A DNA stretch of 64,000 bases from Vallitaleaceae bacterium 9-2 (lineage in GTDB: Bacteria > Bacillota > Clostridia > Lachnospirales > Vallitaleaceae). A model generated the notes under the pieces. It searched no databases, was not told the DNA's origin, and saw nothing but the letters and a program-made list of their open reading frames with translations. This document shows positions 20,241-62,265 of this stretch, piece after piece; the stretch's first letter is position 1; the number at the start of each line of letters is the position of its first letter. The stretch spans positions 2,356,001-2,420,000 of the forward strand of contig CP121691.1 of NCBI GenBank assembly GCA_038396585.1, in the 5' to 3' direction. Both the position numbers and the translations under genes were made by a program.

Positions 20241-20242
20241 GA

Positions 20243-21133: not shown

Positions 21134-21160
21134 AGGTTTCACTTCCTTGTCTAAATAATC

Positions 21161-21187: not shown

Positions 21188-21201
21188 ATTTTATTTATAG
21201 T

Positions 21202-22626: not shown

Positions 22627-22660
22627 AACTTGACTCCTTTTCATTTTGAATTATAGCTTC

Positions 22661-34270: not shown

Positions 34271-35165
34271 TTTTCTCACCCCTATCTTTAAAAATCAATT
34301 TATGTATAATATTATTTTGAACCATATAAATAATTACAATCATCACCATAATTGCAATGGCCATGGTCGAAGCCAAACCAAAATTTGAAAACGAAAATGC
34401 CGTCTTTATTGTATACAACGTAAACGTCGACGATGCATATCCAGGCCCACCTGCAGTCATAACAAATGGAATATCAAACACTTGTAACGCCCCACGAATA
34501 TTATCAAACAGAACGAAATCAACCATTAACATAATACTTGGAATTTGAATATATCTAAACAGATGCCACCCATTTGCTCCATCAACTTTTGCAGCTTCTT
34601 CTATATCCTTTGGAATCGATTGTAAGGCCGCTAAAAAGAGGATGACATGATAGCCGCTGAATCTCCAAACGGAAACCGATGCTAAGACATAGTTGACAAT
34701 CTTAGGGTCTGAAAGCCAGCTTCGTATCCATGATTCAAGCTGGAGTAATTCAAGAATTGAATTAAAAGCACCATTGATAGGTGAATAAAAATATGAAAAC
34801 GCATATGCAATAGCCACACCATTGATAATATATGGCATAAATACCATGGTCTTATAGAATTTTGCCCCTTTTAATTTGCTGTTTAATAATACAGCAAAGC
34901 CTAATTCCACAAAAATCATAATAAAATGTACCACAAAATAGACGGAGTTATTCTTCAGCGAAAGCCATAAGTCTTTGTTTTTAAACATGGAGATGTAATT
35001 TGCAAATCCTATAAACCGACTATCTGCAGAATATCCATCCCATTCGATAAAGCTCATTCTAAAAAGATCGACTGCCGGCAATACAACAAATCCGATAAGC
35101 AATAACATCGGCACAATTAGTGATGCTCCTATAAATATTTTTCTTTTTTTATTTAGTGACTGCAT
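34263..35165 (-). CDS. Carbohydrate ABC transporter permease (MalF type), second importer
   Basis: Permease of 300 residues, six predicted membrane segments (first at about 10-30), EAA loop EEAAKVDGANGWHLF. Partner of the overlapping MalG-type permease and the upstream binding lipoprotein. GGAGG precedes the ATG. A hairpin (35184-35213) separates it from the binding-protein gene. Confidence 0.9.
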   Translation of the reverse strand: MQSLNKKRKIFIGASLIVPMLLLIGFVVLPAVDLFRMSFIEWDGYSADSRFIGFANYISMFKNKDLWLSLKNNSVYFVVHFIMIFVELGFAVLLNSKLKGAKFYKTMVFMPYIINGVAIAYAFSYFYSPINGAFNSILELLQLESWIRSWLSDPKIVNYVLASVSVWRFSGYHVILFLAALQSIPKDIEEAAKVDGANGWHLFRYIQIPSIMLMVDFVLFDNIRGALQVFDIPFVMTAGGPGYASSTFTLYTIKTAFSFSNFGLASTMAIAIMVMIVIIYMVQNNIIHKLIFKDRGEKNV

Positions 35166-35183
35166 TCTTTACCTCCGATATAA

Positions 35184-35213
35184 TAATGGGGATGTTTATG
35201 TCCACCCCCATTA
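35184..35213 (-). other. Intercistronic hairpin after the second binding-protein gene
   Basis: TAATGGGG (35184-35191) pairs with CCCCATTA (35206-35213), with possible extra pairs inside. No U-run follows on the minus strand. It sits between stop of the binding protein and start of the permease. Confidence 0.6.
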
Positions 35214-35223
35214 ATCCTACATT

Positions 35224-43674: not shown

Positions 43675-44757
43675 TCACGCATCGTTCAATAATTTTTCTA
43701 ATTGTTGAACAAAACCGTCAATTTCTTGTTGTTTAAGTTGCAATATTGCGTCGCCAATAGATACTTCAAAATTACACACATTCTCATTTTTTTCTTTAAC
43801 ATAACCGGTCAGCCCTATTCCTGTCGAATGATATACGTTCTGTAAAATCTTAGTAAGTTTTTTACTTGAACACTCTACCGATACATGGAACATATTTGAC
43901 ACGGGAATATGTGGGTGTGTATTAATTTTCGGAACTTTATTCAATAGGCCAGCCATCTCTTTAGCTTTTTCATAATACATCCCCATACGCGGACGTCGAC
44001 GTTCCATATGGTATTTTGCCGGAATAATATATGGGTACAAACTAATTAGGTCTCCACCATAACGACGTTTCCAGACTTTGGCTTCCTTGCAAAAGAATTC
44101 ATCCGCCAAAAGGATAGCTCCTGCAACCGCTCCAATACCTTTGTAAAATGATAGATACACGCTATCAAACAAATCACATATTTCTTTAAGCGTTTTTTGA
44201 TAATAAGGAAGCACTTCAAACAATCTAGCACCATCAAGATGAAGGTGAATACCTTGCTGTTTACAATATGTGGATATTTCAACCAGTTCTTTAAATTCAG
44301 GAAGGTATCCTCCCATCTCGCGTTGGGGCAGTTCTAAAAGCAAGGAGCCGATGGGTTCTTTAACAGATACAATATCGTCGAAGTTCAACAAATGCTCCTG
44401 GTCTCCTAATAAAATAGTTTTTATGTGATGCAGTTTCTTTAGGCCATCTTGCTCATGAATCTCCAGATGTGCCAATGGGTGATATGCAACTGTATATATA
44501 TTTTTTTGATCACATGCGATACGAAGGGCAATCTGCTGCGCCATGGTTCCACTCGGAAAAAAAATCCCCGCTTCTTTACCTGCCTCTAGCGCCAACTCTT
44601 CTTGAAATATATCAATCCATGCACCTTCTCCATATATATCACTCATTGTATGTATATCCACATTTTCAAAGGCCTCCATTAGAATGGATACCTCTCTAGG
44701 ACCATGCCCGCCAATATACTTTTTACACTCTAAATAGGCTTTTTTTAATTCATCCAT
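43675..44757 (-). CDS. Threonine aldolase-like PLP enzyme (beta-eliminating lyase family)
   Basis: Fold-type I PLP enzyme of 360 residues. It resembles low-specificity threonine aldolases: FPSGTMAQQIALRI (cofactor phosphate region), LHLDGARLFE (Asp pairing with the pyridine nitrogen) and the Schiff-base lysine in LSFYKGIGAVAGAIL. The N-terminal 25 residues are longer than usual, and the family also holds phenylserine aldolases and tyrosine phenol-lyase-like enzymes, so the substrate is open. It overlaps the oxidoreductase gene by 13 bases, which suggests translational coupling. Confidence 0.8.
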   Translation of the reverse strand: MDELKKAYLECKKYIGGHGPREVSILMEAFENVDIHTMSDIYGEGAWIDIFQEELALEAGKEAGIFFPSGTMAQQIALRIACDQKNIYTVAYHPLAHLEIHEQDGLKKLHHIKTILLGDQEHLLNFDDIVSVKEPIGSLLLELPQREMGGYLPEFKELVEISTYCKQQGIHLHLDGARLFEVLPYYQKTLKEICDLFDSVYLSFYKGIGAVAGAILLADEFFCKEAKVWKRRYGGDLISLYPYIIPAKYHMERRRPRMGMYYEKAKEMAGLLNKVPKINTHPHIPVSNMFHVSVECSSKKLTKILQNVYHSTGIGLTGYVKEKNENVCNFEVSIGDAILQLKQQEIDGFVQQLEKLLNDA

Positions 44758-48476: not shown

Positions 48477-48550
48477 GATTAACCTCATACTTTCCTCGGC
48501 TTTTGATTGTTAATTATAGATATTATCACACACACGTCTTAAAATTGCAA

Positions 48551-48601
48551 AAAAAATCCTATATATAAACTCAAACTTATTTGTTCAAGTTATATGTAGG
48601 A
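48551..48601 (-). terminator. Terminator of the sialic-acid operon
   Basis: Imperfect stem of about 19 pairs (48557-48576 with 48583-48601) followed by six U on the minus strand, just past nanA. Confidence 0.8.
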
Positions 48602-48633: not shown

Positions 48634-49551
48634 TTACATATTTTTTAGACTTTCTTTTGCTGTTTGAATATCCGAATATAATTTTATCAATTCAAGGTTT
48701 TCTGTACTAACAGGTAAGAAAGGTAGACGTGGATTTCCTATATCACACCCATCTAGCTTCAAAATAGCCTTTACTGCACCATAAAGAGATTCGAAACTAC
48801 ATAATCGATACACAAAATCCGTTATTATTTTTTGCGCTTCAATCGCCTTATCAATTTCACCCTTTCGAATCAACTTTTCAAGTGCTATGTATAGTTCTGG
48901 CATTGCTCCATAGGTTCCTCCTATTCCAGCATCCGCTCCCATAACACGACCGGCCAAATACTGTTCATCTGGTCCGTTAAATACTAGAAACTCTTTTCCG
49001 CCAGCCTGTTTAAAACGCATAATGTCGTGGGCAGGTTCTGATGAACATTTGATGCCAATCACTTTTTCATTTTCAATTAAACGTTGAAAAAGTGGCATTG
49101 ATAAATTAAAGCCTGTCAATTGAGGTATGTTATAGATAATAAAAGGCAAGTCTGAAGCCTCCATAATCTTGGTCCAGTGTTGAAAAACACTTTCTTCGCC
49201 TAAGCGGTAATACACTGATGGAACCGCTGAAATTGCATCGGCACCAACGGACTGTGCATGTTCTGCCAAGTGTGCAGATAACTTTGTCGACGCTGTTCCC
49301 ACATGGACAATAATTTTCATATCATCGCCCGCAGCTTCTATAGCCGCTTCAACAATTTGTTTGCGTTCTTCTATACTTAAAAGAAAACCTTCTCCAGTGC
49401 TCCCACAGACATACAGGCTCTTAACGCCTTTATTTTTCATATACCTTACAAGTTTTTTGGTTCCTTCAACATCAATCTCTTCATTCGCCATAAATGGTGT
49501 ATTTAATGCAACAGTAATTTCTTTAAACGGTTCAATATCGTATTTTAGCAT
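48634..49551 (-). CDS. nanA: N-acetylneuraminate lyase (DapA/NanA family)
   Basis: TIM-barrel class I aldolase of 305 residues that splits sialic acid to N-acetylmannosamine and pyruvate. It has the substrate loop GSTGEGF, the catalytic Tyr in FIIYNIPQLTG, the Schiff-base Lys in VIGIKCSS and the lyase-type GIGGTYGAMPELYI. Clustering with nanE, nanK and a nanQ-like gene supports NanA over dihydrodipicolinate synthase. The start is uncertain: ATG at 49551 has no normally spaced ribosome site, but AAAGGAAG lies behind a perfect hairpin. A TTG at 49575 in the hairpin loop is the alternative and would add eight residues. Confidence 0.87.
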   Translation of the reverse strand: MLKYDIEPFKEITVALNTPFMANEEIDVEGTKKLVRYMKNKGVKSLYVCGSTGEGFLLSIEERKQIVEAAIEAAGDDMKIIVHVGTASTKLSAHLAEHAQSVGADAISAVPSVYYRLGEESVFQHWTKIMEASDLPFIIYNIPQLTGFNLSMPLFQRLIENEKVIGIKCSSEPAHDIMRFKQAGGKEFLVFNGPDEQYLAGRVMGADAGIGGTYGAMPELYIALEKLIRKGEIDKAIEAQKIITDFVYRLCSFESLYGAVKAILKLDGCDIGNPRLPFLPVSTENLELIKLYSDIQTAKESLKNM

Positions 49552-49560
49552 ATGTTTTTT

Positions 49561-49590
49561 ATGCTCATTACCCAATGAGCATCTTCCTTT
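49561..49590 (-). promoter_or_regulatory. Hairpin between Shine-Dalgarno and start codon of nanA
   Basis: On the minus strand AAAGGAAG (49590-49583) is directly followed by a perfect nine-base stem with four-base loop GGGT (49582-49561), then nine bases, then ATG (49551). Folding would bring the ribosome site to about nine bases from the ATG. The loop also holds a TTG that could be a start. Confidence 0.55.
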
Positions 49591-49593
49591 CAC

Positions 49594-50520
49594 CTATGAT
49601 ATATTTATATAATTTTTTACGGCTCCAATCATACCTGCATTATTATCCAATTGGACCGATTGAATCACTAACTTTTTTGCAAATGCAGGCATTAGCTTCT
49701 GCATTGTTTGTTTTCGTATCGGTTCTATTAAGGCACGGTCTTGGGAAGAGACACCTCCACCGATAAGTATTGCTTCTGGATTTAGAACGTGCACCAAATT
49801 AGTAATACCCGTGGCATGAAAATCAACAAACTGTTTCAAGAGTTTTTCTAAAGGCTCTTCATGATAATTTACGCGTTCAAAAAACTCAAGACCGCTACCG
49901 ACCTCCTTGCTAATCATTTGCATATGATTCGCCTGTTTGAGCAATGCTGTCGTCGATCCATACTGCTCAAAACATCCCCGGTTGCCGCATGTACAGCTTT
50001 TTCCATGCATATCGATAATCATATGACCAATTTCTCCCGCAATCCCCAAATGTCCAGAGTATATTTGACCGTTAAGAATAATACCTGCCCCAATACCCGT
50101 TCCGATTGTATAGACAATCAGGTTGTCATATCCTCTCCCACGACCAATCCAGTGCTCTGCAATAGCCGCACAGTTTGCATCATTTTCAACAGTAACACTT
50201 TTATCAAATATCGCTTCAAGAGTCTTTTTTAAATTCGCCCCAATCCAACCGGGAATATTGCCACAGGTACCAATGATTGTACCCGTCGCTTTATCGACTT
50301 GCCCTGTTGCCGAAACTCCAACACCTTCAATATAATGGTGGTTTTCCTTTGCATATACATCAATCAATTTCGCAACTTTTTTCACCTGGTCAAGCAAAGG
50401 GACTTTATAGTCATCAATATTTGCTTTTTCTACATTACAATAGAGTATTTGGCCCTTTTCATCAAAAATTCCATATTTTATGGATGTCCCACCAATATCC
50501 ATACCAATATATTTTTTCAT
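49594..50520 (-). CDS. nanK: ROK-family kinase, probable N-acetylmannosamine kinase
   Basis: ROK sugar kinase of 308 residues. N-terminal ATP motif GMDIGGTSIKYGIF, catalytic Asp in VENDANCAAIAEH, GTGIGAGII, and the ROK zinc site GKSCTCGNRGCFEQYGS. ROK proteins also include glucokinases and repressors; there is no helix-turn-helix here, and the place between nanE (4 bases upstream) and nanA indicates phosphorylation of N-acetylmannosamine released by NanA. Confidence 0.88.
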   Translation of the reverse strand: MKKYIGMDIGGTSIKYGIFDEKGQILYCNVEKANIDDYKVPLLDQVKKVAKLIDVYAKENHHYIEGVGVSATGQVDKATGTIIGTCGNIPGWIGANLKKTLEAIFDKSVTVENDANCAAIAEHWIGRGRGYDNLIVYTIGTGIGAGIILNGQIYSGHLGIAGEIGHMIIDMHGKSCTCGNRGCFEQYGSTTALLKQANHMQMISKEVGSGLEFFERVNYHEEPLEKLLKQFVDFHATGITNLVHVLNPEAILIGGGVSSQDRALIEPIRKQTMQKLMPAFAKKLVIQSVQLDNNAGMIGAVKNYINIS

Positions 50521-50524
50521 CGTC

Positions 50525-51244
50525 TTACGCCTCTTTTTCCTTAATCGCTGTCCAAAATCGATAGGTGATTTCTTGCGGACGCGTAATAGCGCCGCCTACA
50601 ACTACGGCATACGCTCCTGCTTTAATGGCCTCTTTGGCCTGTTCGGGGTAATGAATTTTTCCTTCGGCAATAATGGGAATATGCATTGATTGAGATAACT
50701 TTCTAATTAAGTTCATGTCCGGCCCCTGGTCCTGCCTGGAATAATCGGTATAACCGCTTAAAGTGGTCCCCACAAAATCGACCCCTGCTTTATAAGCATT
50801 GACGCCTTCTTCCAATGTTGATATATCCGCCATTAACAATTGATCAGGATATTTTTCTTTGATCTGACGAATATATTCATTCACTGTGTATCCATCGCCT
50901 CTTGGGCGCAAAGTCGCGTCAAATGCGATGATATCTGTCCCAACACTCACCAATTGATCCACTTCATCCATGGTTGCCGTAATGTATTGAGCAAAATTTT
51001 CATAGCTTTTTTTTATAATACCGATGATTGGCAGGTCAACTTTTTTCTTAATCTGCAGGATGTCGCGCACCCCATTGGCACGTATCCCTACTGCATGCGA
51101 TTGTCTTGCCGCTTCTGCCATCAAAGGCATAATACCACCTTCTTCTAGGTATAAAGGTTCAGTTTCTAACGCTTGGCAAGATACAATCAAACCATTTTTT
51201 AAACACTCAATTATTTTCTGGTTTATCTGCTTATTGTTATCCAT
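50525..51244 (-). CDS. nanE: N-acetylmannosamine-6-phosphate 2-epimerase
   Basis: TIM-barrel epimerase of 239 residues turning ManNAc-6-phosphate into GlcNAc-6-phosphate. Family marks are [15 protein letters not shown] at the N-terminus, the Lys of [39 protein letters not shown], and the catalytic-type [13 protein letters not shown] followed by [14 protein letters not shown]. It overlaps the oxidoreductase gene by eight bases and precedes nanK by four. Confidence 0.95.
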
Positions 51245-52346
51245 GATATATTTCCGTTAAAGCCACCTTTCGATTTTCTTGCAACGATAGTGTCAGTGCA
51301 TCAGCTGTTGCTATCGCCATCCTTGCCGCTTCTCCTGTTAAGAGCGGTTTAAACTCGTCGTCAACTTCTTTTCCATGCATCAGTTCATTAAAAAATTTCA
51401 TTTCATTTTTCATTATTCCATGTAACCACATTGGAGGTTTTTTGCCCGGTTGACCATACATAATGGCTCCATCCATTTCTAATCCTTTATAAATACGAGT
51501 CCGATCATCATCTTCTTCCTGCGTTTCATGAACCAAGAAATATTCTTCTGAATCCCCTATTTTCAAGGTCATCTTTACATCTTGCATATCAATGCGTATT
51601 GCTCCTTTTGTCCCTTGAATCAACACATAGTGTTCACTCCATCGAAATGCCGAACCATATTCCAGCAAAGCATATCGCTTATTTTCAAATTCTAAGTTGA
51701 TAAATAACATATCATCCTCATCACCATAACCTTCACCATGATGGGCAACATTCCCACCGGTCATAACCACATTTTGAGGTTGTCCCATTATAAATTGAAT
51801 ACAATCAAGTTCATGAATGTGATGGTATAAATGTCCTCCTGATTTTTCTCGGTTTTTTTTCCAGCTGATATTCGGTTGCTTTTCTTCCCAGCCATTACGT
51901 GCTGCGTGACAATATAGAATATCTCCTATAACTCCATCATTAATAAGTTTTTTGGCATGCCTTACACCTCGAAAAAAGTTCATCACATGTCCTGCCATAA
52001 AAATCACATTATGTTCATCACACGCATTAACCATGGAATCACAGTCACTATATGAGAGTGCAATAGGTTTTTCACAAAATACATGCACACCATGCTTTGC
52101 CGCTTTAATAACCGGCTCTTTATGCAAATAATTTGGAGAGGCTACAATAACGGCTTCTACATCTTGACGTGAAAAGAGACAATCCAGATCCGTTTCCACA
52201 TCACATTGTAGCTCTTTGGCTACTACGTCGCCATTATCAGGATCATACACCGCCACAATTTTTGCTCCTTCTAAGCTTTCCATAATTCTTCCTAATTCTG
52301 CTCCAAAATATCCTGTTCCTACAATTGCATATCCAATAGTTTTCAT
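51237..52346 (-). CDS. Gfo/Idh/MocA oxidoreductase of the sialic-acid operon (NanOx/YjhC-like)
   Basis: NAD-dependent oxidoreductase of 369 residues: Rossmann motif [22 protein letters not shown] with the conserved Lys, and [14 protein letters not shown] with the catalytic-type His. Length and place between the importer and nanE match the enzymes (Ruminococcus gnavus NanOx, E. coli YjhC) that convert 2,7-anhydro-Neu5Ac to Neu5Ac. This assignment is from context and family; other members of the family act on different sugars. The ATG at 52346 follows GGAGTG; an ATG six codons earlier would contain that site. Confidence 0.8.
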
Positions 52347-52390
52347 TTTATTCACTCCAAACATTTATAGTATTGTTATATTTGTTAATA

Positions 52391-53227
52391 TTATTTTACT
52401 GATCCTTCTGCTAATCCTCCTGCAATCCTTTTTTGAATAATACTAAAGAAAATTACGGAAGGTATAACAACTAGAGCCGAGGCCGCCATCATATCGCCCC
52501 AAACTAATATTTCTGCACCTTCAAGTGATTTTAAAGCTACTGCGACTGTCATTTTATCAGTGCTATTAATTAAAATCAGTGCATATAAGAACTCATTCCA
52601 CACATTGATAAAGGTATAGATAGCCGTTGCAACAATCCCTGGTGCAACCAATGGCAATACAATGCGAATAAACACTTCGAATTTGTTGGCGCCGTCGACG
52701 CGAGCTGCTTCTTCAATACCAATAGGCACTGTTTTAAAAAAACCAACCAATATCCACACGGCATAGGGTACACTGAAGGATAAATATACAATGATAAGCC
52801 CTAAGCGTGTATTAACCAATCCAGCTTTTGCCATTACCAACGAATACGGGATCGCTAATAAAATAGGCGGAAACATATAAGTCATAATGAGCGCTTTAGA
52901 CATTAGGTTCCCAAATTTTGGAAAGAATCGTACGATTCCATAAGCCGCCATGGCAGAAATTGTAATGGCAATAACAGTTGTTGCTAAGGCAATCAAAATA
53001 CTATTGCTAATATTTCGAGCAAATCCTAAATCATTTAACACATGTATATAATTGCTTAATGTAAAAGATTTTGGCCAAAACGATGTTGGATTGGAAGTTA
53101 ATTCTCCTGTTTCTTTAACGGACGACAATATTATCCAAACCAAAGGAAAACCTGCAATAATCGTTAAGAAAATGAGATATATATGACACATAAAATTCCC
53201 AAGGATAGTTTTTTTGTTTTTTTCCAT
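52391..53227 (-). CDS. ABC transporter permease (MalG type), sialic-acid operon
   Basis: Permease of 278 residues with six predicted membrane segments (first about 12-34) and EAA loop EEAARVDGANKFEVF. The ATG at 53227 follows AAGGAGG and lies one base before the stop of the partner permease on the same strand. It forms the importer channel with that protein. No ATPase gene is present in the operon, so a shared MsmK-type ATPase is expected. Confidence 0.88.
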   Translation of the reverse strand: MEKNKKTILGNFMCHIYLIFLTIIAGFPLVWIILSSVKETGELTSNPTSFWPKSFTLSNYIHVLNDLGFARNISNSILIALATTVIAITISAMAAYGIVRFFPKFGNLMSKALIMTYMFPPILLAIPYSLVMAKAGLVNTRLGLIIVYLSFSVPYAVWILVGFFKTVPIGIEEAARVDGANKFEVFIRIVLPLVAPGIVATAIYTFINVWNEFLYALILINSTDKMTVAVALKSLEGAEILVWGDMMAASALVVIPSVIFFSIIQKRIAGGLAEGSVK

Positions 53228-53228
53228 T

Positions 53229-54116
53229 TTAACTTTCCTCCTTTTCCCATTTTCGTATAACTGTAAAATAAACACCTGTGACTACAAGTAAAAACAGCAA
53301 AAGTAATATTGTAACCGCTGATGAACGTCCTAAGAATTTAGTTCCCCATCCCATATTGTATGCGTAAATCGGAAGTGTCGTTGTTAGATTTGCCGGTCCA
53401 CCTCCTGTTAGCAAGTAAATAATATCAAAATTATTAAATACCCAAATTGTTCGCAAAACGACAAGTAATCCAACAACTATTTTAATATGAGGTAAAGTAA
53501 TATGTACAAAAGACTGCCACCGTTTTGCTCCATCAATTTTCGCTGCTTCGTACTGATCTTTAGGAATTGTTTGCAGTGCTGATAATATATTGACCATAAT
53601 CATCGGAGCTCCAAACCACACATTAATAAAAACCAAAGTCATAAATACGAGATTTGCGTCGCTAAAAAACTGCAATCGTTCTGTCGTTAATCCTAGATCA
53701 AATAAGAGATTAGGTACATATCCATATACACCATTCAAAATCCATTTCCATGAAAGTGCAATTACAATCGATGGAAATGCCCATGGAATAATCAATAACG
53801 TCCTATATATTCCTTTAAATTTAACAACTCGATGTAACGCTAATGCTGCTGAAAACCCTATCAATATTTGTCCAGTCAAGGATAAAACAGTCCATTTTAT
53901 GGAATTTAATAAAGCAACATAAAATGCTGAGTCTTGTAGAACATATATATAGTTCTTAAATCCAATAAATGAATAACTTTGTTTTATTAAATGCTTTGAT
54001 GTCAAACTATAATATATGCTGGAAAATACTGGATATATTAATAACATTCCAACAACTAGTAAAGCCGGAAGGACAAATATCCATCTCGTTAAATTACGTT
54101 CTTTTTTCACAAACAT
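53229..54116 (-). CDS. ABC transporter permease (MalF type), sialic-acid operon
   Basis: Permease of 295 residues, six predicted membrane segments (first about 12-34), EAA loop YEAAKIDGAKRWQSF. Partner of the next permease. ATG at 54116 follows GGTGG; a GTG at codon 3 is a weaker alternative. A very stable hairpin (54141-54175) separates it from the binding-protein gene. Confidence 0.88.
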   Translation of the reverse strand: MFVKKERNLTRWIFVLPALLVVGMLLIYPVFSSIYYSLTSKHLIKQSYSFIGFKNYIYVLQDSAFYVALLNSIKWTVLSLTGQILIGFSAALALHRVVKFKGIYRTLLIIPWAFPSIVIALSWKWILNGVYGYVPNLLFDLGLTTERLQFFSDANLVFMTLVFINVWFGAPMIMVNILSALQTIPKDQYEAAKIDGAKRWQSFVHITLPHIKIVVGLLVVLRTIWVFNNFDIIYLLTGGGPANLTTTLPIYAYNMGWGTKFLGRSSAVTILLLLFLLVVTGVYFTVIRKWEKEES

Positions 54117-54140
54117 TCCTAACCACCTATCATTCTATTT

Positions 54141-54175
54141 TTTATAGAAGGGATAGAATCCATCCCTTCTATAAA
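54141..54175 (-). other. Very stable intercistronic hairpin after the sialic-acid binding-protein gene
   Basis: Fourteen perfect base pairs (54141-54154 with 54162-54175) and a seven-base loop, starting six bases past the stop codon on the minus strand. No U-run follows, so it is not a classical terminator. Confidence 0.7.
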
Positions 54176-54180
54176 ATAAA

Positions 54181-55563
54181 TTATTGCATCATTTCAAATG
54201 ATTCATTAAGTTCATCTTCCGCTTTTTGAGCCGCCGTCTCAACGTCTACTCCTCCAACTAAAATGGATTGAAACATATTTTCTATAATTGATTGTGAAGC
54301 CAGTAAGCCCGCTTCAACACTTGGTCCATGTTCAAAACCGATTGCTGTTCCTTTTCCAACAGCCTCACTAATAACATCAACTTCATCTGCAAATTGTTGT
54401 ATTGTCTCATTTTCCATATATTTTTCACTGTCTTTAATTCCCGCAATAGCAGGTAACATTCCAACAGGAACAGATTCTAAGAATTCAATATAAATATCTT
54501 CATTATAAATATACTCAATAAATGCTTTTGCAATTTCAGGATACTCTGTATTTTTCCACAAAACAATTGGAATATTTGATGTTTCAATTCCATACTCTGG
54601 ATCATTTGCATTTATTTTTGGAATCGGAGCACATGAAATATCATCTAATAAATCTGGTGAGTTATTAGCTATACCTCCAACGTGAAATCCACTGTTGAAA
54701 TCAAATGCCATTTTACCCTGATAAAATAAATTTGCTTGATCTAAAACTTTATAGTTAACTGAATCTTTTGGTGATGTTTCATTATAGAGTTTTGCCCAAT
54801 ACTTTATCCCGTCTATAGCTAAATCACTGGTTAAATTTGCTTTTAAATCTTCTGTTAATAAACTACCGCCACCACTACGTACATAAAAATTCAAAAAACG
54901 CGTTCCCATCAAGTCACCGGATCCAGTAGGAACTGAAATACCATAAACATCATCTGTTGTTAATTTTACAGCCGCTTCATAAAATTCATCCCATGTTGTC
55001 GGAACCTCTATCCCTGCTTCATCTAATAAATCTTTTCTATACCACATTACCTGTGCATGTGAATATAATGGAACCGAATAATTATTCCCATCTAAAGTTC
55101 CTTCACCAAGTGTCGCTTCTGCAAATTTATTTCTACCTATAGCATCGACGACATCATTTAAAGGCATTAAAGCTTCTGCATCAATCATTTCTACTACATG
55201 TCCAGGAAGCGCTGTACTTATATCCGGAATATTTCCAGAAGCAAGTCCAGTTGTCCACTTAGTATAAAAATCCCCCCAAGAATAAGTTTCAATAATAATA
55301 TTGACTTTTGGGTTCTGTTGCATAAATTCATCCGCCGCTTTTTGTATAACGTCTAGTCTTTGCCCCTGTGTAAACGAGTGCCAAAAAGTAATCTCTCCTT
55401 CAAGCTCTTGAATCTCTTCACTACCTGTATTTTCTGTTTGTGCGGTCTCTGTGTTTTCGGAACTATCTTGACTCTGCGTCTCTGGTTCTTCGTTCAAACT
55501 ACATCCCATTAATGTTATCCCCATCATAACAACAATTAGTACACTGCTTAAGAACTTTTTCAT
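54181..55563 (-). CDS. Substrate-binding lipoprotein of the sialic-acid importer
   Basis: Family-1 solute-binding protein of 460 residues with a lipoprotein signal peptide ending in GITLMGC, an acidic Gln/Glu/Ser/Thr-rich linker (about 22-55) and the binding fold from ELEGEITFWHSFTQG. It resembles the SatA/SP1683-type sialic-acid binding proteins in operon position, with two permeases directly downstream. Specificity for Neu5Ac or 2,7-anhydro-Neu5Ac is inferred from context. ATG at 55563 follows AGGAGG; longer in-frame starts lack a ribosome site. First gene of the operon. Confidence 0.85.
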   Translation of the reverse strand: MKKFLSSVLIVVMMGITLMGCSLNEEPETQSQDSSENTETAQTENTGSEEIQELEGEITFWHSFTQGQRLDVIQKAADEFMQQNPKVNIIIETYSWGDFYTKWTTGLASGNIPDISTALPGHVVEMIDAEALMPLNDVVDAIGRNKFAEATLGEGTLDGNNYSVPLYSHAQVMWYRKDLLDEAGIEVPTTWDEFYEAAVKLTTDDVYGISVPTGSGDLMGTRFLNFYVRSGGGSLLTEDLKANLTSDLAIDGIKYWAKLYNETSPKDSVNYKVLDQANLFYQGKMAFDFNSGFHVGGIANNSPDLLDDISCAPIPKINANDPEYGIETSNIPIVLWKNTEYPEIAKAFIEYIYNEDIYIEFLESVPVGMLPAIAGIKDSEKYMENETIQQFADEVDVISEAVGKGTAIGFEHGPSVEAGLLASQSIIENMFQSILVGGVDVETAAQKAEDELNESFEMMQ

Positions 55564-55614
55564 AACACATTTCCTCCTAATTTTGATATGGCATTTTTTG
55601 CTTCCCATACACGT

Positions 55615-55649
55615 ATTATAAGATGATTTTTTATGCATTTATACATAAA
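55615..55649 (-). promoter_or_regulatory. Promoter and inverted repeat of the sialic-acid operon
   Basis: TATAAT (55620-55615) on the minus strand has no good -35. Over the -35 position lies an imperfect 20-base palindrome (55630-55649, 16 of 20 positions symmetric, outer TTTATG/CATAAA). It is a candidate site for the adjacent AraC-family regulator acting as activator. Confidence 0.5.
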
Positions 55650-55691
55650 TTCCAACTAATAGTAGCATATTACGACCATTAATCAGTCATT

Positions 55692-56573
55692 TCATCTAAA
55701 TTCATGTGCTGTAAATCTATACTGTCTCGGGGTCATCCCAAATGCTTTTTTAAAGAGACGTATAAAATAATTAGCATCTTCAAATCCAACTTCATAGGCA
55801 ATATCATTTATATTATCATCAGTCACTAAGAGAAGGCGTGCCGCTGTTGTCAAACGAATCTCTTTAATAAATTGTATGGGTGACTTTCCTGTCTGTTTTT
55901 TAAAGAGCCGACGAAAGGTAGTTTCCGCTAGTCCAGACATGATACTTAGCTGGTTAGATGTATATTTTTCTGTCGGATGGGACACGATATAATCAATAAC
56001 CACCCGAATCCTAGGATCTTCCATTAGATCTTGAGTCTTTGCTCGTCGTCGAATCTCTTCTAAAGAAAACACATTTTTTTCATAGGTACGAATATTACGT
56101 TCAACTTCCGGCTTTTGACGAGATGTTTTTTCAATAATGCTTGCAATAATTAATTCTAAGTTTCCATGCATTCTTAACATTCTTGACATATCCTGTTTTT
56201 GTATACTTTCATAGGTTTCATAAAAGTAGTGTTTTAACTGCTGATCTCCCTCAATAATTTTAGGAATCCCATAATATTGAGTTAAAAAATCTGCACCTTC
56301 AAAAAAAACAGATGTAGAAAAACGTATACTAATAAATGTAAAATTATCTTCAAGCGCCTTGCAGGACATAAGGCTTCGTTCCGGTATATAGGCAATTTGT
56401 CCCTTTTTTATAATGTACTTTTCGCCTGCAATATCAAACTCACCACTTCCTTCTACAATATATCTCAACAAACTATATGGAATCACACTTTCTTGATACA
56501 CCCAAGTTCGTCCAAATCGATATTTATCAACATACAAAAAATTAAATTTTACTGAATCTTCAAATGCACCCAT
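55692..56573 (-). CDS. AraC-family transcriptional regulator of the sialic-acid cluster
   Basis: Cytoplasmic regulator of 293 residues. N-terminal cupin-type ligand domain (YIVEGSGEFDIAGEKYIIKKGQI around 55-75, shown here only in part) and C-terminal AraC double helix-turn-helix (NQLSIMSGLAETTFRRLFK; INDIAYEVGFEDANYFIRLFK). It lies directly before the importer operon and is divergent from the nanQ-like gene. The inducer may be Neu5Ac, ManNAc or a phosphate derivative. ATG at 56573 follows GGAGG. Confidence 0.86.
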   Translation of the reverse strand: MGAFEDSVKFNFLYVDKYRFGRTWVYQESVIPYSLLRYIVEGSGEFDIAGEKYIIKKGQIAYIPERSLMSCKALEDNFTFISIRFSTSVFFEGADFLTQYYGIPKIIEGDQQLKHYFYETYESIQKQDMSRMLRMHGNLELIIASIIEKTSRQKPEVERNIRTYEKNVFSLEEIRRRAKTQDLMEDPRIRVVIDYIVSHPTEKYTSNQLSIMSGLAETTFRRLFKKQTGKSPIQFIKEIRLTTAARLLLVTDDNINDIAYEVGFEDANYFIRLFKKAFGMTPRQYRFTAHEFR

Positions 56574-56732
56574 TTTTTTACCTCCAATCAATTATATGAA
56601 CATATTTTACGCGAAAACTTACTGATTCACAATAAAAAAAGTCGTATTATGCTATTATCGGTCTTTTATCACATTTAATAGTTGCATAGCATTTTATATA
56701 ATGAGGCTATTAATTTTTGGAGGTCATCATAT

Positions 56733-57182
56733 ATGCTATACGATTCAATCTATACTACGAATTATTCCACTAGTTTGGAAAAGATAAGTCAAGTCCTTAA
56801 ATATTTGTACACATTATCAACCAACGACCTACCCCTAAATCCTATTGTATTAATCGATAACGAAGTTTATGGGAATATCGTGGAACTTGAAACAAGACCT
56901 GAAAATCAATGTATATTTGAAGCACATGAAACCCATATTGATATTCACTATATTCTAGAAGGTATCGAGGGGATTGCCCTTGCTCATAAAGAAAAACTTC
57001 AAAGACGCACAGCATATGATTGTAAAAAAGACATCGCCTTTTTTGATGGTTCTGAGGATGAAACCCTATTTCTTGGTCCTGGTGACTTTATAGTATGTTG
57101 GCCAAATGATGCCCATAAAGTTGGTATTATGGATCAAACCCCTTCTTTCGTCAAAAAAATCGTCTTTAAAATCAAACTATAA
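56733..57182 (+). CDS. nanQ: YhcH/YjgK/YiaL family protein, NanQ-like
   Basis: Cupin-fold protein of 149 residues with the family's conserved metal-binding stretch EAHETHIDIHYILEGIE and the C-terminal PGDFIVCWPNDAHKVG. E. coli YhcH (NanQ) speeds the anomerisation of sialic acid for the aldolase, and the gene is commonly linked to nan genes. Here it is divergent from the AraC regulator of the nan cluster, so a role in sialic-acid use is likely. ATG at 56733, nine bases after GGAGG. Confidence 0.85.
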   Translation: MLYDSIYTTNYSTSLEKISQVLKYLYTLSTNDLPLNPIVLIDNEVYGNIVELETRPENQCIFEAHETHIDIHYILEGIEGIALAHKEKLQRRTAYDCKKDIAFFDGSEDETLFLGPGDFIVCWPNDAHKVGIMDQTPSFVKKIVFKIKL

Positions 57183-57208
57183 CACTTATGTTTACATCAA
57201 GAATATGC

Positions 57209-57241
57209 AAAAAAAATCGCCCGATTAGTCGGGCGATTTTT
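57209..57241. terminator. Bidirectional terminator between nanQ-like gene and mgl operon
   Basis: Twelve-base GC-rich stem (57213-57224 with 57229-57240) with A-run and T-run on either side, between converging genes. Confidence 0.92.
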
Positions 57242-57272: not shown

Positions 57273-58367
57273 TCAAGTTTTCTTAAGGTATTTTCGTGTA
57301 TCAAGGGCTACCGCAAAGACAATGATAAAACCTTTGATAATGTTTTGGTATTCGAAGGAAATATTGGCAAAAATCATTCCATAACTCATAACGGTAAACA
57401 GTAATACCCCGGCAATGGCTCCAGATACTTTACCGACACCACCACTAAAAGAAATCCCACCAACAACACAGGCCGCGATTGCATCAAGCTCATAGTTAAA
57501 CCCTGAACTGTTATTGGCACTACCGATTCGACCGGCTTCTAAGAAACCACCTAATCCATAGAGCGCACCGGCTAACATATACACAAGTACAAATGTCTTA
57601 ACAACGTTAACACCAGACACAGCCGCAGCTTCCGGATTACCACCGACTGCAAACATATTCTTACCAAAAACGGTTTTGTTCCATAAAACCCATACAATCA
57701 CACTGACAATAATCGCATAGATGACCAACCATGGAATATAAAATCCTCCGGTAAATTCGATGGGACCAAGGGATGTAATACGTCCTTGTACAAAGCCTGA
57801 ATACGCTTTATCCAAACCTCCAATCGGTTGTCCACCTTGTTCTGGCGAGTTATAGTAAAGTGTTAATACTCCATATAGGAAAACGCTCATTCCTAAGGTA
57901 ACAATAAATGGATGCACCTTAAATATCGCAGCAACTAAACCGTTGATAATACTAAACACAGCACACACAGCCATTGCAATCAAAAGTGGAATGGCAAGAC
58001 GCACGACAACATGCGTATTCGTTAACCAAAGCTCTGGATAAAATCTTGATGCATAATTTGTTGCTTGTAAGAGAGAAGCCGAGATAACCATGGCAAAACC
58101 AACAGAGCGTCCAAGGGACAAGTCGGTACCTTGAAGGATAATAATCCCTCCAACCCCAAAGGCTAAAATAAGCTTAACTGATGATTGACTTAATACATTA
58201 ATTAATGTACTGATAGATAAGAAATTGGGTTCACGAACAATAACAATGGCAATCAGAACGGTCATTACCAAGTATATTGCATTGTTAATCAAGAAGTTCA
58301 ACCAATCGCGACCACTCATTTTTTTAAATCGTTCAATTCTGGTATTTACTCTTTTTGTAAAATTCAT
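57273..58367 (-). CDS. mglC: Galactose/methyl-galactoside ABC permease MglC
   Basis: Permease of 364 residues of the RbsC/XylH/MglC class, with about ten hydrophobic segments. Family stretches are GGIIILQGTDLSLGRSVG near the start and EAAAVSGVNVVKT, GGFLEAGRIGS and CVVGGISFSGG later. It forms the membrane channel of a ribose/galactose-type importer, with MglA (15 bases upstream) as ATPase. Last gene of the operon. Confidence 0.92.
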   Translation of the reverse strand: MNFTKRVNTRIERFKKMSGRDWLNFLINNAIYLVMTVLIAIVIVREPNFLSISTLINVLSQSSVKLILAFGVGGIIILQGTDLSLGRSVGFAMVISASLLQATNYASRFYPELWLTNTHVVVRLAIPLLIAMAVCAVFSIINGLVAAIFKVHPFIVTLGMSVFLYGVLTLYYNSPEQGGQPIGGLDKAYSGFVQGRITSLGPIEFTGGFYIPWLVIYAIIVSVIVWVLWNKTVFGKNMFAVGGNPEAAAVSGVNVVKTFVLVYMLAGALYGLGGFLEAGRIGSANNSSGFNYELDAIAACVVGGISFSGGVGKVSGAIAGVLLFTVMSYGMIFANISFEYQNIIKGFIIVFAVALDTRKYLKKT

Positions 58368-58382
58368 ATCATAACCACCCTA

Positions 58383-59885
58383 CTATAAAAATTTTGCTGA
58401 TAGCTTCAACAAATCATTTTGAGCCGCTTCTTTTGTATCCACAATGCCTGCCACATACCCTCGACTCATAATCATGATTCGATTAGTTACACCAAGAAGT
58501 TCTGGCATCTCTGAAGATACCATGATAATTGACTTCCCTTTATTGGCTAACTCAATCATCAAATTGTAAATATCATACTTCGCTCCAACATCAATACCTC
58601 GTGTTGGTTCGTCCAGTAGCAAAATATCCGGTTCTGTAACCAACCATCTTCCGATAATAACCTTCTGTTGATTTCCTCCGCTAAGTTCACGAATCAACGA
58701 TTCTTGACTAAAGGTTTTAATGCTCATATTTTTAATCTGTTCATCTGTATCTTTGAACATTTTCTTTTCGCTAAGTAAGCCAAATTTTCCAACATAGCTT
58801 CGAATATGGGCGCTACAGGTATTAAAGCGAATATTGGCTATATCAAAGATACCCGTTGCTCGGCGTTCTTCGGTAACCAGGGCTAACTTGCTTTCAATAG
58901 TCTTATGCGGGCTTGAATTGTTTAAGGGTTTTCCGTCAACAAAGATTTCTCCACTTTCAATCGTTCGCAGACCAAAAATAGCTTCCAACAATTCGGTACG
59001 CCTTGCGCCAACTAGACCATAGATTCCAAGTATCTCACCTTTTCGAAGTTCAAAACTGGCATCATAGACCTTGGGCTCATACCTCGTTTTTAATTTCTTA
59101 ACCTCCATCTTCACTTCTCCGGGTACATTTGTAACCGGTGGAAAACGGTGGCTGAGGTCGCGACCGACCATCATGTTTATTATCTTATCCATATCCAATT
59201 CTTCAATATTTTTGGTTCCAATATATTGACCATCTCGTAATACAGTAACTTCATCAGATATAGCAAATATCTCATCCATTTTGTGTGAAATATAGATGAT
59301 TCCACATCCTTGTTCTTTAAGTGTTGCAATAATTTCAAATAACTTGTTAACTTCTTGTTCTGTGAGTGAGCTGGTAGGTTCGTCTAATACAATAACGTTC
59401 GCATCATAGCTTATGGCTTTGACAATCTCAACCATCTGACGCTTGGATACGGACAGTTCACTGAGCCTTGTATCCGGGTCAATATCATTAATTTTGATTC
59501 GATCAAAAAGGGCTTTGGTATCTTCATACATTTTTTTCTCATCAATAAACCCTCTTTTGGTTGGATATCTTCCCAGCCAAATATTTTCACTAACTGTTCG
59601 TGCAATAACTTGGTTGAGCTCTTGATGTACCATCGAAACACCATTTTCCAATGCGTGTTTTGGATCAGTAAAATCCACTTGGTTTCCTTTTAGATAAAAA
59701 GTACCTTCATCCTGCTTATATATTCCGAACAGGCATTTCATTAACGTTGATTTTCCTGCACCATTCTCACCCATTAATGAATGTACAGTCCCGGGTTTAA
59801 CCTCAAGACATATTTTATCTAATACTTTTACACCCGAAAAAGATTTAGATACATTTTCAATTGATAATATACTTTGCTTGTCCAT
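58383..59885 (-). CDS. mglA: Galactose/methyl-galactoside ABC ATPase MglA
   Basis: Double ABC ATPase of 500 residues. Domain 1: Walker A GENGAGKST, signature LSVSKRQ, Walker B VIVLDEPTSSL. Domain 2: the degenerate GLVGARRTELLE in place of Walker A, typical of sugar-class MglA/RbsA, then ELSGGNQQKVIIGRWL and LLLDEPTRGIDVGAK. It drives the importer made with MglC and MglB. Confidence 0.94.
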   Translation of the reverse strand: MDKQSILSIENVSKSFSGVKVLDKICLEVKPGTVHSLMGENGAGKSTLMKCLFGIYKQDEGTFYLKGNQVDFTDPKHALENGVSMVHQELNQVIARTVSENIWLGRYPTKRGFIDEKKMYEDTKALFDRIKINDIDPDTRLSELSVSKRQMVEIVKAISYDANVIVLDEPTSSLTEQEVNKLFEIIATLKEQGCGIIYISHKMDEIFAISDEVTVLRDGQYIGTKNIEELDMDKIINMMVGRDLSHRFPPVTNVPGEVKMEVKKLKTRYEPKVYDASFELRKGEILGIYGLVGARRTELLEAIFGLRTIESGEIFVDGKPLNNSSPHKTIESKLALVTEERRATGIFDIANIRFNTCSAHIRSYVGKFGLLSEKKMFKDTDEQIKNMSIKTFSQESLIRELSGGNQQKVIIGRWLVTEPDILLLDEPTRGIDVGAKYDIYNLMIELANKGKSIIMVSSEMPELLGVTNRIMIMSRGYVAGIVDTKEAAQNDLLKLSAKFL

Positions 59886-59945
59886 TTTTTCACCTAACCT
59901 TAGACTATATTGTTACAGACTATGCATCTTTTTTACAAAATGCTA

Positions 59946-59966
59946 CCAATGCCTTATCGGCATTGG
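59946..59966 (-). other. Intercistronic hairpin between mglB and mglA
   Basis: CCAATGCC (59946-59953) pairs perfectly with GGCATTGG (59959-59966) around a five-base loop. No U-run follows directly. It probably raises mglB over mglA-mglC, as the downstream genes must still be expressed. Confidence 0.65.
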
Positions 59967-59994
59967 CGCATATATTTACACTTCGTATAATTAT

Positions 59995-61083
59995 TTATTG
60001 AAAGTCTTGATAATTATCTTTTGTTACTGCAACATAAGGAACACGAACCGCTTTGACTTCATCAAGTGTCCACTCTGTATCTGCAATAGGATCCTTACCG
60101 TTTGCAATATTTGCCGCTAAATCGATAACAGCTTTTGCTTGGTTATTACCATCATTAAGAACAGTACCATTCATTTCATCATCTGCAACGTGGTTAAGTG
60201 CTTGCGCAAGCGCATCAACACCATATACAGGAATCTCTACCCCTTGTTCTTTCATGGCATTAATCGCACCAAATGCCATTCCATCGTTGTTACAGATAAC
60301 TAATTCAATGCTATCGCCATAAGATGCTAACCATGTTGTCATCTTGTCATAACCACCATCCGTTGACCACTTTGGATCTGGTTGCATTGCAAGTTCTTCT
60401 ACCGCAATCCCTGCTTCATCAAATGCTTTTACAGAATATTCTGTTCTTGCTTCAGCATCTGGATGTCCTGGTTCTCCTTTTAGTAAAACGTATTGAACCG
60501 TTCCATCACCATTTTTATCCCACTCTGGGTTTGCTTGCCAGTCCGAAACCATCATTTCACCTTGAATAATTCCGGCGTCTTTTGAAGCTGTTCCTACATA
60601 CCATACTTTGTCATATGTATCCATAATGCCTTCTTCTGTTGCTTCTTTGTTAAAAAGAATCAAAGGAATATCCGCATCTTTTGCTTTTTGAATAATTGTT
60701 CCTGCAGATGCCGGATCCACTAAGTTAATTGCCAAAATATCTACGCCTTGACCGATGAAGATATCTACCTGGTCATTTAATTTATTTTGTTGATTCTCTG
60801 AGTCAACAATATTAATGGTAATGCCTGCTGCGCCTGCGTGCTCTTTTAATGCTGGCGATACAACACCATTCATAAAGTTATCAGCAAAGTTATAAATATT
60901 CGCTCCAATAGTTATTTCTTTCATTTCAGAGCTGTCTTGCTCAGTCTCATCACTTCCTGAAGCCTCTTGATTGGTTGACGTATCGTCATTTGTCGTTGTG
61001 TCATCAGCTGCTTCATCACTTGAACATGCTGCTAAAGATAAAACCATCACTAATACAAGAATCATACTTAATAATTTTCTCAT
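59995..61083 (-). CDS. mglB: Galactose/glucose-binding lipoprotein MglB
   Basis: Substrate-binding lipoprotein of 362 residues. Signal peptide ends at Cys20 (VLSLAACSS), followed by a linker rich in Asp, Thr and Ser. The two-lobed fold shows the calcium loop DKNGDGTVQY followed by LLKGEPGHPDAEART, as in E. coli galactose-binding protein, and ICNNDGMAFGAINAM. It captures galactose, glucose or methyl-galactoside for MglAC. A paralogue lies directly upstream (61261-62265). Confidence 0.92.
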   Translation of the reverse strand: MRKLLSMILVLVMVLSLAACSSDEAADDTTTNDDTSTNQEASGSDETEQDSSEMKEITIGANIYNFADNFMNGVVSPALKEHAGAAGITINIVDSENQQNKLNDQVDIFIGQGVDILAINLVDPASAGTIIQKAKDADIPLILFNKEATEEGIMDTYDKVWYVGTASKDAGIIQGEMMVSDWQANPEWDKNGDGTVQYVLLKGEPGHPDAEARTEYSVKAFDEAGIAVEELAMQPDPKWSTDGGYDKMTTWLASYGDSIELVICNNDGMAFGAINAMKEQGVEIPVYGVDALAQALNHVADDEMNGTVLNDGNNQAKAVIDLAANIANGKDPIADTEWTLDEVKAVRVPYVAVTKDNYQDFQ

Positions 61084-61103
61084 TTTCTCTTCCTTCCCCG
61101 TGT

Positions 61104-61109
61104 ATTATA
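61104..61109 (-). promoter_or_regulatory. Possible second -10 of mglB
   Basis: TATAAT (61109-61104) close to the mglB ribosome site, with a poor -35. It would give a very short leader; weaker evidence than the TG-A-TATACT site at 61170-61178. Confidence 0.25.
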
Positions 61110-61169
61110 TACACTTATATGATATTTTGTTATTTTGCACAATTTTTTGTGCTATCTACTACGTTTTTT

Positions 61170-61178
61170 AGTATATCA
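61170..61178 (-). promoter_or_regulatory. Putative extended -10 promoter of mglBAC
   Basis: TG-A-TATACT (61178-61170) on the minus strand, with no good -35 but two TGTG-type palindromes just upstream (61198-61235). This fits a promoter switched on by a response regulator. Confidence 0.5.
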
Positions 61179-61197
61179 TATGGGTTTTTTAAGAAAA

Positions 61198-61235
61198 TGT
61201 GAATTTTCACAGTCCTTTTTGTGTTTTCTTACACA
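61198..61235. promoter_or_regulatory. Tandem inverted repeats upstream of mglB
   Basis: TGTGAA, two bases, TTCACA (61198-61211) and TGTGT, six bases, ACACA (61220-61235). On the minus strand both begin ACTGTG, 24 bases apart. They lie about 20 bases before the -10 and are candidate sites for the response regulator of the upstream kinase, or for another activator. Confidence 0.45.
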
Positions 61236-61260
61236 GTTTGGTTTTTTTGCATATATTTAT

Positions 61261-62265
61261 TCAATCAAACACAAAGTTTTTATACGGAATCCATATATAC
61301 TTATCGTCTTCAAGATTATAATTCAGTTTTTTATCAGGATTTTCAATAATATATTCTGTGAGTTCCAAGATTGCATTAGCCATATTATTCCCGTCATTAA
61401 GAATCGTTCCATACATATAGCCATTTTTGATAAAGTCAATCGCTTCACTTAATCCATCAATTCCGACAATGACAAAAGGGACTTCGATAACCGTCCCGCG
61501 CATCTGCTGTCCAAAGTATCCATTATCCATTAAGTATTTTGTCGCTCCGATAGCCATGGCATCGTTATTTGAAATAAGTAATTCAATGGCGTCTCCATAT
61601 TGAAGCATGATTTCTTCCATGTCCCGGTAGGCCTCATTTTCATTCCAATTTGCCACTTGGGTCATTAATACTTCGACTTGATATCCCTCACGTTCAAGTG
61701 CATCAATAACGACTGTCGTTCGCTCTTCCGCATCCTGATGTCCCTGCTCTCCCTTGAAGATAACACATTGAATAATATTATCCCCATTGGTATCATACGC
61801 ATTAAGATTCTCTGTCGAGCCCCCAAATGCTTCAGCAATCATTTCCGCCTGCATGGCACCTGATTCTGTCGCATTGGCTCCGACATAATAGACATCATCC
61901 ATGGCATCAAGGTCTTCTTTTAAGGGCTCTCGGTTAAAAAAGATAATAGGCACATCTTCCTGGATGGATTTTTCCACAAAAATATATGAACTTAAACGTT
62001 CAACCGGATTGATGATTAAAAGGTCTATCCCTTCATCATATAGTTGTTCTGCGATTTCATTTTGTACAATTTGCGATTTTTTACTATCATAAATTCGGAT
62101 GTTTATTTCATCGTTTTGATATTCTTGTAAATATTGTCCCACAGAATAAATAAACGGATCACTATTATCATAAAGTAATACGGCAACTTCTGTCTCGCCT
62201 TTTTCACATCCAACAAGGGTTATGCTACATACGAATAGAGCTACAACTAACATGATTTTTTTCAT
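61261..62265 (-). CDS. MglB-like sensory sugar-binding lipoprotein coupled to a histidine kinase
   Basis: Lipoprotein of 334 residues with signal peptide ending at Cys20 (SITLVGCEK) and the galactose-binding-protein fold: calcium loop DTNGDNIIQC then FKGEQGHQDAEERT, and LISNNDAMAIGATKYL. It is clearly homologous to MglB. Its ATG overlaps the kinase stop by four bases and its GGAGG lies inside the kinase gene, so the two are made together. Unlike the transport binding proteins here, it is not followed by a hairpin. The likely job is to bind sugar and signal to the kinase, as the XylFII-LytS pair does for xylose in Clostridium. Confidence 0.82.
   Translation of the reverse strand: MKKIMLVVALFVCSITLVGCEKGETEVAVLLYDNSDPFIYSVGQYLQEYQNDEINIRIYDSKKSQIVQNEIAEQLYDEGIDLLIINPVERLSSYIFVEKSIQEDVPIIFFNREPLKEDLDAMDDVYYVGANATESGAMQAEMIAEAFGGSTENLNAYDTNGDNIIQCVIFKGEQGHQDAEERTTVVIDALEREGYQVEVLMTQVANWNENEAYRDMEEIMLQYGDAIELLISNNDAMAIGATKYLMDNGYFGQQMRGTVIEVPFVIVGIDGLSEAIDFIKNGYMYGTILNDGNNMANAILELTEYIIENPDKKLNYNLEDDKYIWIPYKNFVFD

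Follow-up and report, generated by a model that had tools for sequence, protein, structure and literature searches.

How might a bacterium in whose genome no sialidase is recognized come to use sialic acids? The question is raised by a nine-gene cluster in a 64,000-nucleotide stretch of Vallitaleaceae bacterium 9-2 (contig CP121691.1, positions 2,356,001 to 2,420,000 of the forward strand), here called the window, in which coordinates are counted unless another locus or genome is named. The minus strand carries, in order, araC, a gene for a SatX-like lipoprotein, two permease genes, nanOx, nanE, nanK and nanA, with a nanQ-like gene divergent to them. All nine genes lie inside the span 48634-57182 that an initial annotation had marked as a sialic acid cluster, and the set it had named – importer, Gfo/Idh oxidoreductase, nanE, nanK, nanA, AraC regulator and nanQ-like gene – was recovered in full, with family calls that agree between Pfam and NCBIfam. 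We conclude that the block very probably serves the uptake and use of 2,7-anhydro-N-acetylneuraminic acid (2,7-anhydro-Neu5Ac) released by other organisms, the substrate being assigned from sequence. Scavenging of (anhydro)sialic acids, as that annotation had proposed, is supported by the residues of NanOx, by an importer linked to nanOx, and by the lack of a match to the glycoside hydrolase family 33 (GH33) models PF13088 and PF13859 in the genome. The pathway itself is already known; new are a sialidase-free case that has an ATP-binding cassette (ABC) importer and whose empty site is exactly defined, and the geometry of operator and promoter.

The oxidoreductase belongs to the NanOx/YjhC family

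nanOx (51237-52346, minus) encodes a Gfo/Idh/MocA protein with the HxxH motif. It is 77% identical over 370 residues (phmmer, 677 bits) to the chain of PDB entry 6z3c, which we take to be RgNanOx of Ruminococcus gnavus; the numbering of the catalytic residues matches that of the published enzyme. E. coli YjhC (6o15) scored 502 bits and the next PDB family 80 bits. The five catalytic residues, K93, K163, H175, H176 and H178, are all kept with identical numbering, and mutating them abolishes the activity of RgNanOx (PMC7535918). In a tree of 22 rows, the window's protein falls within a starred 14-row clade (99/97) together with RgNanOx, Lachnoanaerobaculum and two nanOx-bearing members of its own family. 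Its nearest neighbour there is Lachnoanaerobaculum, on an unstarred fork (88/86), and G020 and G021, the two family members, belong to a starred six-row subset (100/99) that excludes it. The initial annotation had made its reading depend on the oxidoreductase grouping with NanOx/YjhC, and that is where the two scores, the clade and the five residues place it. By this likeness, NanOx would interconvert 2,7-anhydro-Neu5Ac and Neu5Ac, the imported anhydro form being turned into Neu5Ac by NAD-cycled oxidation, elimination, hydration and reduction.

A related locus from a Propionibacteriaceae metagenome bin (L008) has tandem nanOx genes (10001-11110 and 11293-12390 of that locus), 66% and 62% identical to the window's.

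The importer genes are linked to nanOx in relatives

The importer is encoded by a gene for a SatX-like solute-binding lipoprotein of 460 residues with the lipobox LMGC (54181-55563, minus; SBP_bac_1, 165 bits) and by genes for a satY-like permease (53229-54116, minus) and a satZ-like permease of the CUT1 ABC type (52391-53227, minus), both with BPD_transp_1 domains. Sixteen related loci were compared for gene order. The order AraC, binding protein, permease, permease, NanOx is identical in the 10 that have the whole stretch intact (L001, L002, L005, L007, L008, L031-L034 and L036); of the other six, four (L003, L004, L006 and L010) run into contig ends, L035 retains part of a permease after AraC, and L009 is without an AraC match in the stretch. 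Across 21 related loci searched, the SatX-like protein is 53-68% identical to nanOx-linked binding proteins in 13 (in L006 only over 157 residues), several of the remaining eight ending before the satX position. The satY-like permease is 55-78% identical to counterparts in 19, some of the loci being cut, and the satZ-like permease is matched in 20, at 61-78% identity in 18 and over part of its length in L035 (81% over 118 residues) and L053 (70% over 209 residues). araC is matched in 11, many loci ending before its position. A PDB search returned no close solved structure for the lipoprotein (best E 3.6e-29). The alignment of SatX-like proteins comprised eight sequences, and the window's placement was not resolved in a binding-protein tree of 13 rows.

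The three genes have the features of SAT2/ST7/SatXYZ importers, namely three genes, no ATPase of their own, linkage to nanOx and orthology to the R. gnavus type, the last judged against locus L034 as a proxy. L034 was taken as this proxy because nanOx in its genus (that of genome G346, with a nanOx match in 6 of 20 genomes) reaches 92% identity to the 6z3c chain; its binding protein is 63% identical to the SatX-like protein. None of the nine cluster genes encodes an ATPase; the genome has two MalK-type ATPase genes at other places. The lipoprotein and two permeases would import 2,7-anhydro-Neu5Ac powered by a shared MalK/MsmK-type ATPase encoded outside the cluster.

Two further CUT1-like sugar importers, each a binding protein and two permeases named by eye, lie at 19401-22644 and 33437-36579, the former adjoining a GH32-like gene (17891-19375). 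No ATPase gene is seen beside either, in keeping with a shared MalK/MsmK-type ATPase.

No GH33 sialidase is found in the genome

The initial annotation had seen no sialidase in the cluster. Searches of the single-contig 3.81-Mb genome extended that observation: neither PF13859 (E 0.001) nor PF13088 (E 0.1 and 0.001) gave a GH33 match, sialidases outside GH33 not being covered by these searches. A GH33 nanH in the operon or elsewhere in the genome, as in an R. gnavus-type producer and user, was thus not found with these models. The 8-bp overlap of nanOx and nanE leaves no remnant at the place where nanH sits in R. gnavus.

The sensitivity of the models could be gauged on three related loci with a GH33 gene beside nanOx (L003, L031 and L034). 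PF13088 detected all three, while the whole-genome search with PF13859 detected only that of L003. PF13088 was run on 18 genomes (E limit 0.001), 17 with nanOx and one, G011, of the same species as the present strain and without nanOx. Six of the 17 were matched and 11, Vallitaleaceae bacterium 9-2 among them, were not. PF13859 matched 5 of 22 nanOx genomes, and none of the 11 PF13088-negative genomes turned positive; five genomes of the G346 genus (G774, G776, G777, G780 and G781) were searched with PF13859 only, G777 being positive. Because they are drafts or metagenome bins, absence is softer in several of the 17 genomes.

A candidate AraC operator at a fixed distance from a -10 box

Two near-identical 22-bp sites, conserved in relatives, are candidate operators for the AraC-family regulator (araC, 55692-56573, minus; HTH_18, 90 bits; AraC_binding, 30 bits). 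One, GTCGTAATATGCTACTATTAG, precedes satX (55656-55677, minus) and the other, GTCGTATTATGCTATTATCGG, precedes the nanQ-like gene (56640-56661, plus), and 57 nt from the start of each lies a predicted -10 box TATAAT (55615-55620, minus, for satX; 56697-56702, plus, for nanQ). The pattern common to the two sites matches these two places and no others in the window at up to three mismatches (0.03 expected).

A weight matrix was built from 11 seeds, the two window sites and one site from each of nine related loci, the latter chosen upstream of satX for similarity to the window sites, and was run on 15 related loci with the locus tested left out; 12 of these were compared with 60 first-order shuffles each. 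In 10 of the 12, the best whole-locus score exceeded all 60 shuffles. With a matrix lacking the window sites, the best window site scored 20.2 against a shuffle maximum of 19.6. The window's two sites rank as the top two across the 64 kb. The ten best sites in related loci precede satX, a GDSL esterase gene (L033 and L034) or the permease remnant of L035, and lesser sites precede nanQ-nanE-nanK (L035) and an AXE1-like esterase gene (L005).

At 16 of 20 sites a TATAAT-like box (at least five of six letters) follows the start of the motif, 57 nt on at 11 of them and 58 nt on at the other five, compared with a background rate of 3.1% near the same sites (318/10,260 positions). The 20 sites were picked from matrix scans for their position beside genes of the set and come from related loci, so that they are not independent, and the spacing was first spotted when eight of the upstream regions were aligned. 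The box is lacking at four sites, namely the distal one in both L001 and L002, the one before satX in L034, and the weak L008 site; among sites that were not seeds, six of nine have it, the weak L036 site included. Consensus scans of the window gave promoters and terminators at chance level (35 vs 38.8 and 6 vs 4.9, respectively), and the promoter claim therefore rests on the operator and its spacing. The hexamer TTAATA stands 16 nt before the nanQ TATAAT, and for the satX TATAAT the promoter scan listed no -35-like hexamer. The nagAB locus described below yielded no operator (best 15/21 letters).

If TATAAT is the -10 box, the operator lies at about -69 to -48, a position that would suit an AraC-type activator. 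These features point to a conserved candidate promoter of the activator type, at which the AraC-family protein, answering to an inducer, would most likely bind the operator and activate satX and nanQ. A promoter with -35, -10 and ribosome-binding site has been mentioned upstream of RUMGNA_02701 in R. gnavus (PMC3808388). We found no report of an AraC operator for an anhydro-sialic acid regulon in the literature searched, parts of which were available to us, and as far as that literature goes the conserved operator and promoter geometry are new.

In L001 and L002, both from oral Lachnospiraceae, two operators occur exactly 150 bp apart upstream of satX (6552/6702 and 6571/6721, respectively), the box at +57 being present only with the proximal copy. 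Such paired operators might act through DNA looping.

The cluster is a strain-variable block

At E 1e-90, nanOx was found only in this genome among the four of its genus (G000, G010-G012). Wider searches at this limit, counting this genome each time, gave nanOx in 3 of the family's 22 genomes, in 6 of 392 from the order and in 2 of 391 from a sample of the class. In the same-species genome G011, the two flanks (98.4-98.7% identical) are joined on one contig without the block, leaving an empty site. In the window, the block is bracketed by a 13-bp direct repeat, TGCAAAAAAAATC, at 48546-48558 and 57206-57218, the copies being 8,660 bp apart; the left copy has an exact match elsewhere only at 57206 (window plus strand), and the right copy leads into a terminator-like hairpin, which the empty site has as well. 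At the empty site the repeat is present once, with 7 A instead of 8. The cluster is thus a strain-variable block. Pfam showed no integrase or transposase among the nine genes; short antisense open reading frames were not scanned. That the window stands apart from the family members G020 and G021 in the NanOx tree favours horizontal gain over loss, but the fork of window plus Lachnoanaerobaculum has support of only 88/86 and the base composition of the block is ordinary. Sporadic strain distribution of the anhydro-sialic acid pathway is known in R. gnavus (PMC12323340).

Near the block, G011 differs at another small site bounded by a repeat: it is about 218 bp shorter within a threonine-aldolase-like gene (43675-44757, minus; named by eye), at window 44507-44713, with an 11-bp overlap at the junction.

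Catabolic genes complete a predicted route to glycolysis

The remaining genes of the operon encode a putative N-acetylmannosamine-6-phosphate (ManNAc-6-P) 2-epimerase, nanE (50525-51244, minus; NCBIfam PRK01130, 308 bits against a cut-off of 189; Pfam NanE, 248 bits), a ROK-family kinase, nanK (49594-50520, minus; Pfam ROK, 228 bits; best PDB match 5nck, N-acetylmannosamine kinase, E 1.1e-51), and a predicted N-acetylneuraminate lyase, nanA (48634-49593, minus; Pfam DHDPS, 223 bits; best PDB match 6rab, a putative N-acetylneuraminate lyase, E 1.5e-72). The divergent nanQ-like gene (56733-57182, plus) encodes a DUF386/YhcH member (110 bits, cut-off 26.5). Outside the block, the neighbouring genes nagA (338 bits against a cut-off of 226) and nagB (304 bits against 237) lie at G000:225190-227101; nagB is an intact frame, the TAA reported in it being the terminal stop after its 242 residues. 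NanA, NanK, NanE, NagA and NagB are thus all encoded, the substrates of NanA and the kinase being assigned by context.

With these enzymes, NanA would cleave Neu5Ac into ManNAc and pyruvate, NanK would phosphorylate ManNAc, NanE would then yield N-acetylglucosamine-6-phosphate (GlcNAc-6-P), and NagA and NagB would pass GlcNAc-6-P into glycolysis. The NanQ-like protein may accelerate equilibration of the sugar ring.

Alternative explanations

Cargo, self-sufficiency and regulator could each be read otherwise. The importer might be chiefly for free Neu5Ac (or 2-deoxy-2,3-didehydro-Neu5Ac, Neu5Ac2en), with NanOx a minor salvage enzyme for any anhydro form that enters. DUF386/NanQ anomerases work on free Neu5Ac. 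In addition, SAT3-type ABC importers and SiaX transporters take Neu5Ac or both forms as cargo (PMC10955332, PMC7535918). However, nanOx adjoins the importer genes in all sufficiently long related loci except L035, the R. gnavus SAT2 binding protein from the same ABC family binds 2,7-anhydro-Neu5Ac and does not interact with Neu5Ac (PMC10017367), and R. gnavus strains with the SAT2-type importer grow on 2,7-anhydro-Neu5Ac and not on Neu5Ac (PMC7535918), which makes a Neu5Ac importer quite unlikely. It is equally improbable that the strain is no pure scavenger, either because a sialidase escaping the GH33 models releases sialic acid or because a sialidase was lost recently. Sialidase families besides GH33 exist, the search used PF13088 and PF13859 only, and a GH33 gene directly follows nanOx in the relatives L031 and L034. 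PF13088, which finds the GH33 genes of L003, L031 and L034, nevertheless finds nothing here, nor does PF13859, though it misses two of those three; nanOx and nanE overlap, with no sialidase remnant between them; and with 11 of 17 nanOx genomes lacking a PF13088 match, a sialidase-free state is not unusual. Finally, the 22-bp motif might be bound by another regulator, for example an RpiR-type NanR, the AraC gene being a mere neighbour; L009 has the motif and no AraC gene matched in its stretch, and the L034 cluster ends in an RpiR-type gene. We regard this as unlikely, since an AraC gene stands beside the motif in every other motif-bearing locus, L008 and L036, whose AraC proteins diverge most (38% identity), have the two weakest motifs, and the position of the operator would suit an AraC-type activator.

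Uptake and use of 2,7-anhydro-Neu5Ac under AraC control remains the preferred reading, and several observations count against one or another part of it. The R. gnavus binding protein is represented by its nearest proxy, L034, with a NanOx of 91-92% identity to the 6z3c chain, and nanOx of L035 is accompanied by a permease remnant only. NanA scores 228 bits against 281 for the curated N-acetylneuraminate lyase cut-off, its best NCBIfam match; the best NCBIfam match of NanK, ROK_glcA_fam, is below cut-off, as are the N-acetylmannosamine kinase models; and the NanQ-like protein scores 78.8 bits where the N-acetylneuraminate anomerase equivalog requires 160, so that it does not qualify as NanQ by that model. 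With these scores under the equivalog cut-offs, the names NanA, ROK kinase for ManNAc and NanQ-like lean on context. As for the operator, L031, L033 and L035 exceed their shuffles only narrowly; the sites of L008 and L036 are weak and score below their shuffles; L009 has a strong operator and no AraC gene matched in the stretch available; and no convincing operator was seen in L003 or L006, which lack the upstream region, or in the 236 bp available of L004. In base composition the block (36.0%) is no different from the rest of the window (36.9%).

In L035, an AraC gene with its operator is followed by the last 118 permease residues and then nanOx (8329-11073 of that locus); the missing binding protein and first permease might have been lost by deletion or in assembly.

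Relation to known systems

The nan operon of R. gnavus ATCC 29149 comprises RUMGNA_02701 to RUMGNA_02691 (PMC12323340, PMC3808388). It shares with the block an AraC regulator, a binding protein, two permeases, NanOx, NanE, NanA and NanK, and its sugar isomerase gene, 02700, was taken as the counterpart of the nanQ-like gene. The likeness in content to R. gnavus that the initial annotation had seen therefore stands, whereas the likeness in order holds only in part: the block lacks the intramolecular trans-sialidase (IT-sialidase) gene nanH, has no gene left for RUMGNA_02701 (of unknown function), carries nanA and nanK in swapped order, and has nanQ divergent, not within the operon as in R. gnavus. 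E. coli nanXY (yjhBC), a published scavenger, likewise has a NanOx homologue and no IT-sialidase (PMC7535918), but uses a major facilitator superfamily transporter rather than an ABC importer, is controlled by NanR, and forms an operon separate from nanA, nanK and nanE. The loci of Lachnoanaerobaculum saburreum and oral taxon 107 (L001 and L002) have AraC, binding protein, permeases and NanOx (79-80% identical) in the block's order and no PF13088 or PF13859 match in their genomes; they differ in having nanA and nanK upstream, no nanE matched within the stretch, and two operator copies. L034, a locus tentatively of Blautia type, shares the core of importer and NanOx and differs in a GH33 sialidase gene directly after nanOx and a GDSL esterase gene under an operator copy.

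Gut genome surveys have described many Neu5Ac users without sialidase (PMC10017367, PMC5583593), and the block adds the anhydro form, with an importer of the ABC type, to such sialidase-free use. Since 11 of the 17 nanOx genomes lack a GH33 (PF13088) match, dependence on the anhydro-sialic acid of neighbours may be common outside R. gnavus. On balance we lean towards a broader reading, in which an AraC activator with a single conserved 22-bp operator, set 57-58 nt ahead of the -10 box, defines an anhydro-sialic acid regulon across different Clostridia with or without sialidase. Its members would be satXYZ-nanOx and nanQ, joined in relatives by genes for esterases that would remove acetyl groups from sialic acids; the regulon would move between strains as a compact sialidase-free block, and scavenging would be the commoner form of the pathway in the group. 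The operator with its promoter geometry offers a sequence handle on regulon members, unlinked genes included, and on sensing by AraC, and the natural strain pair, with the block present or absent at one site, offers a clean comparison.

Gene starts and neighbouring genes

Starts in the open reading frame list were corrected by their ribosome-binding sites. nanOx was set to ATG 52346 (listed at 52364), the nanQ-like gene to ATG 56733, with GGAGG in front (listed as TTG 56682), araC to ATG 56573, satX to ATG 55563 and the second permease gene to ATG 53227; the start of nanA is ambiguous between GTG 49593, TTG 49575 and ATG 49551. After the block, at 57273-62265, lies a galactose/ribose-type ABC importer (permease, double ATPase and two similar binding proteins, named by eye), which is outside the block and whose DNA is retained in G011.

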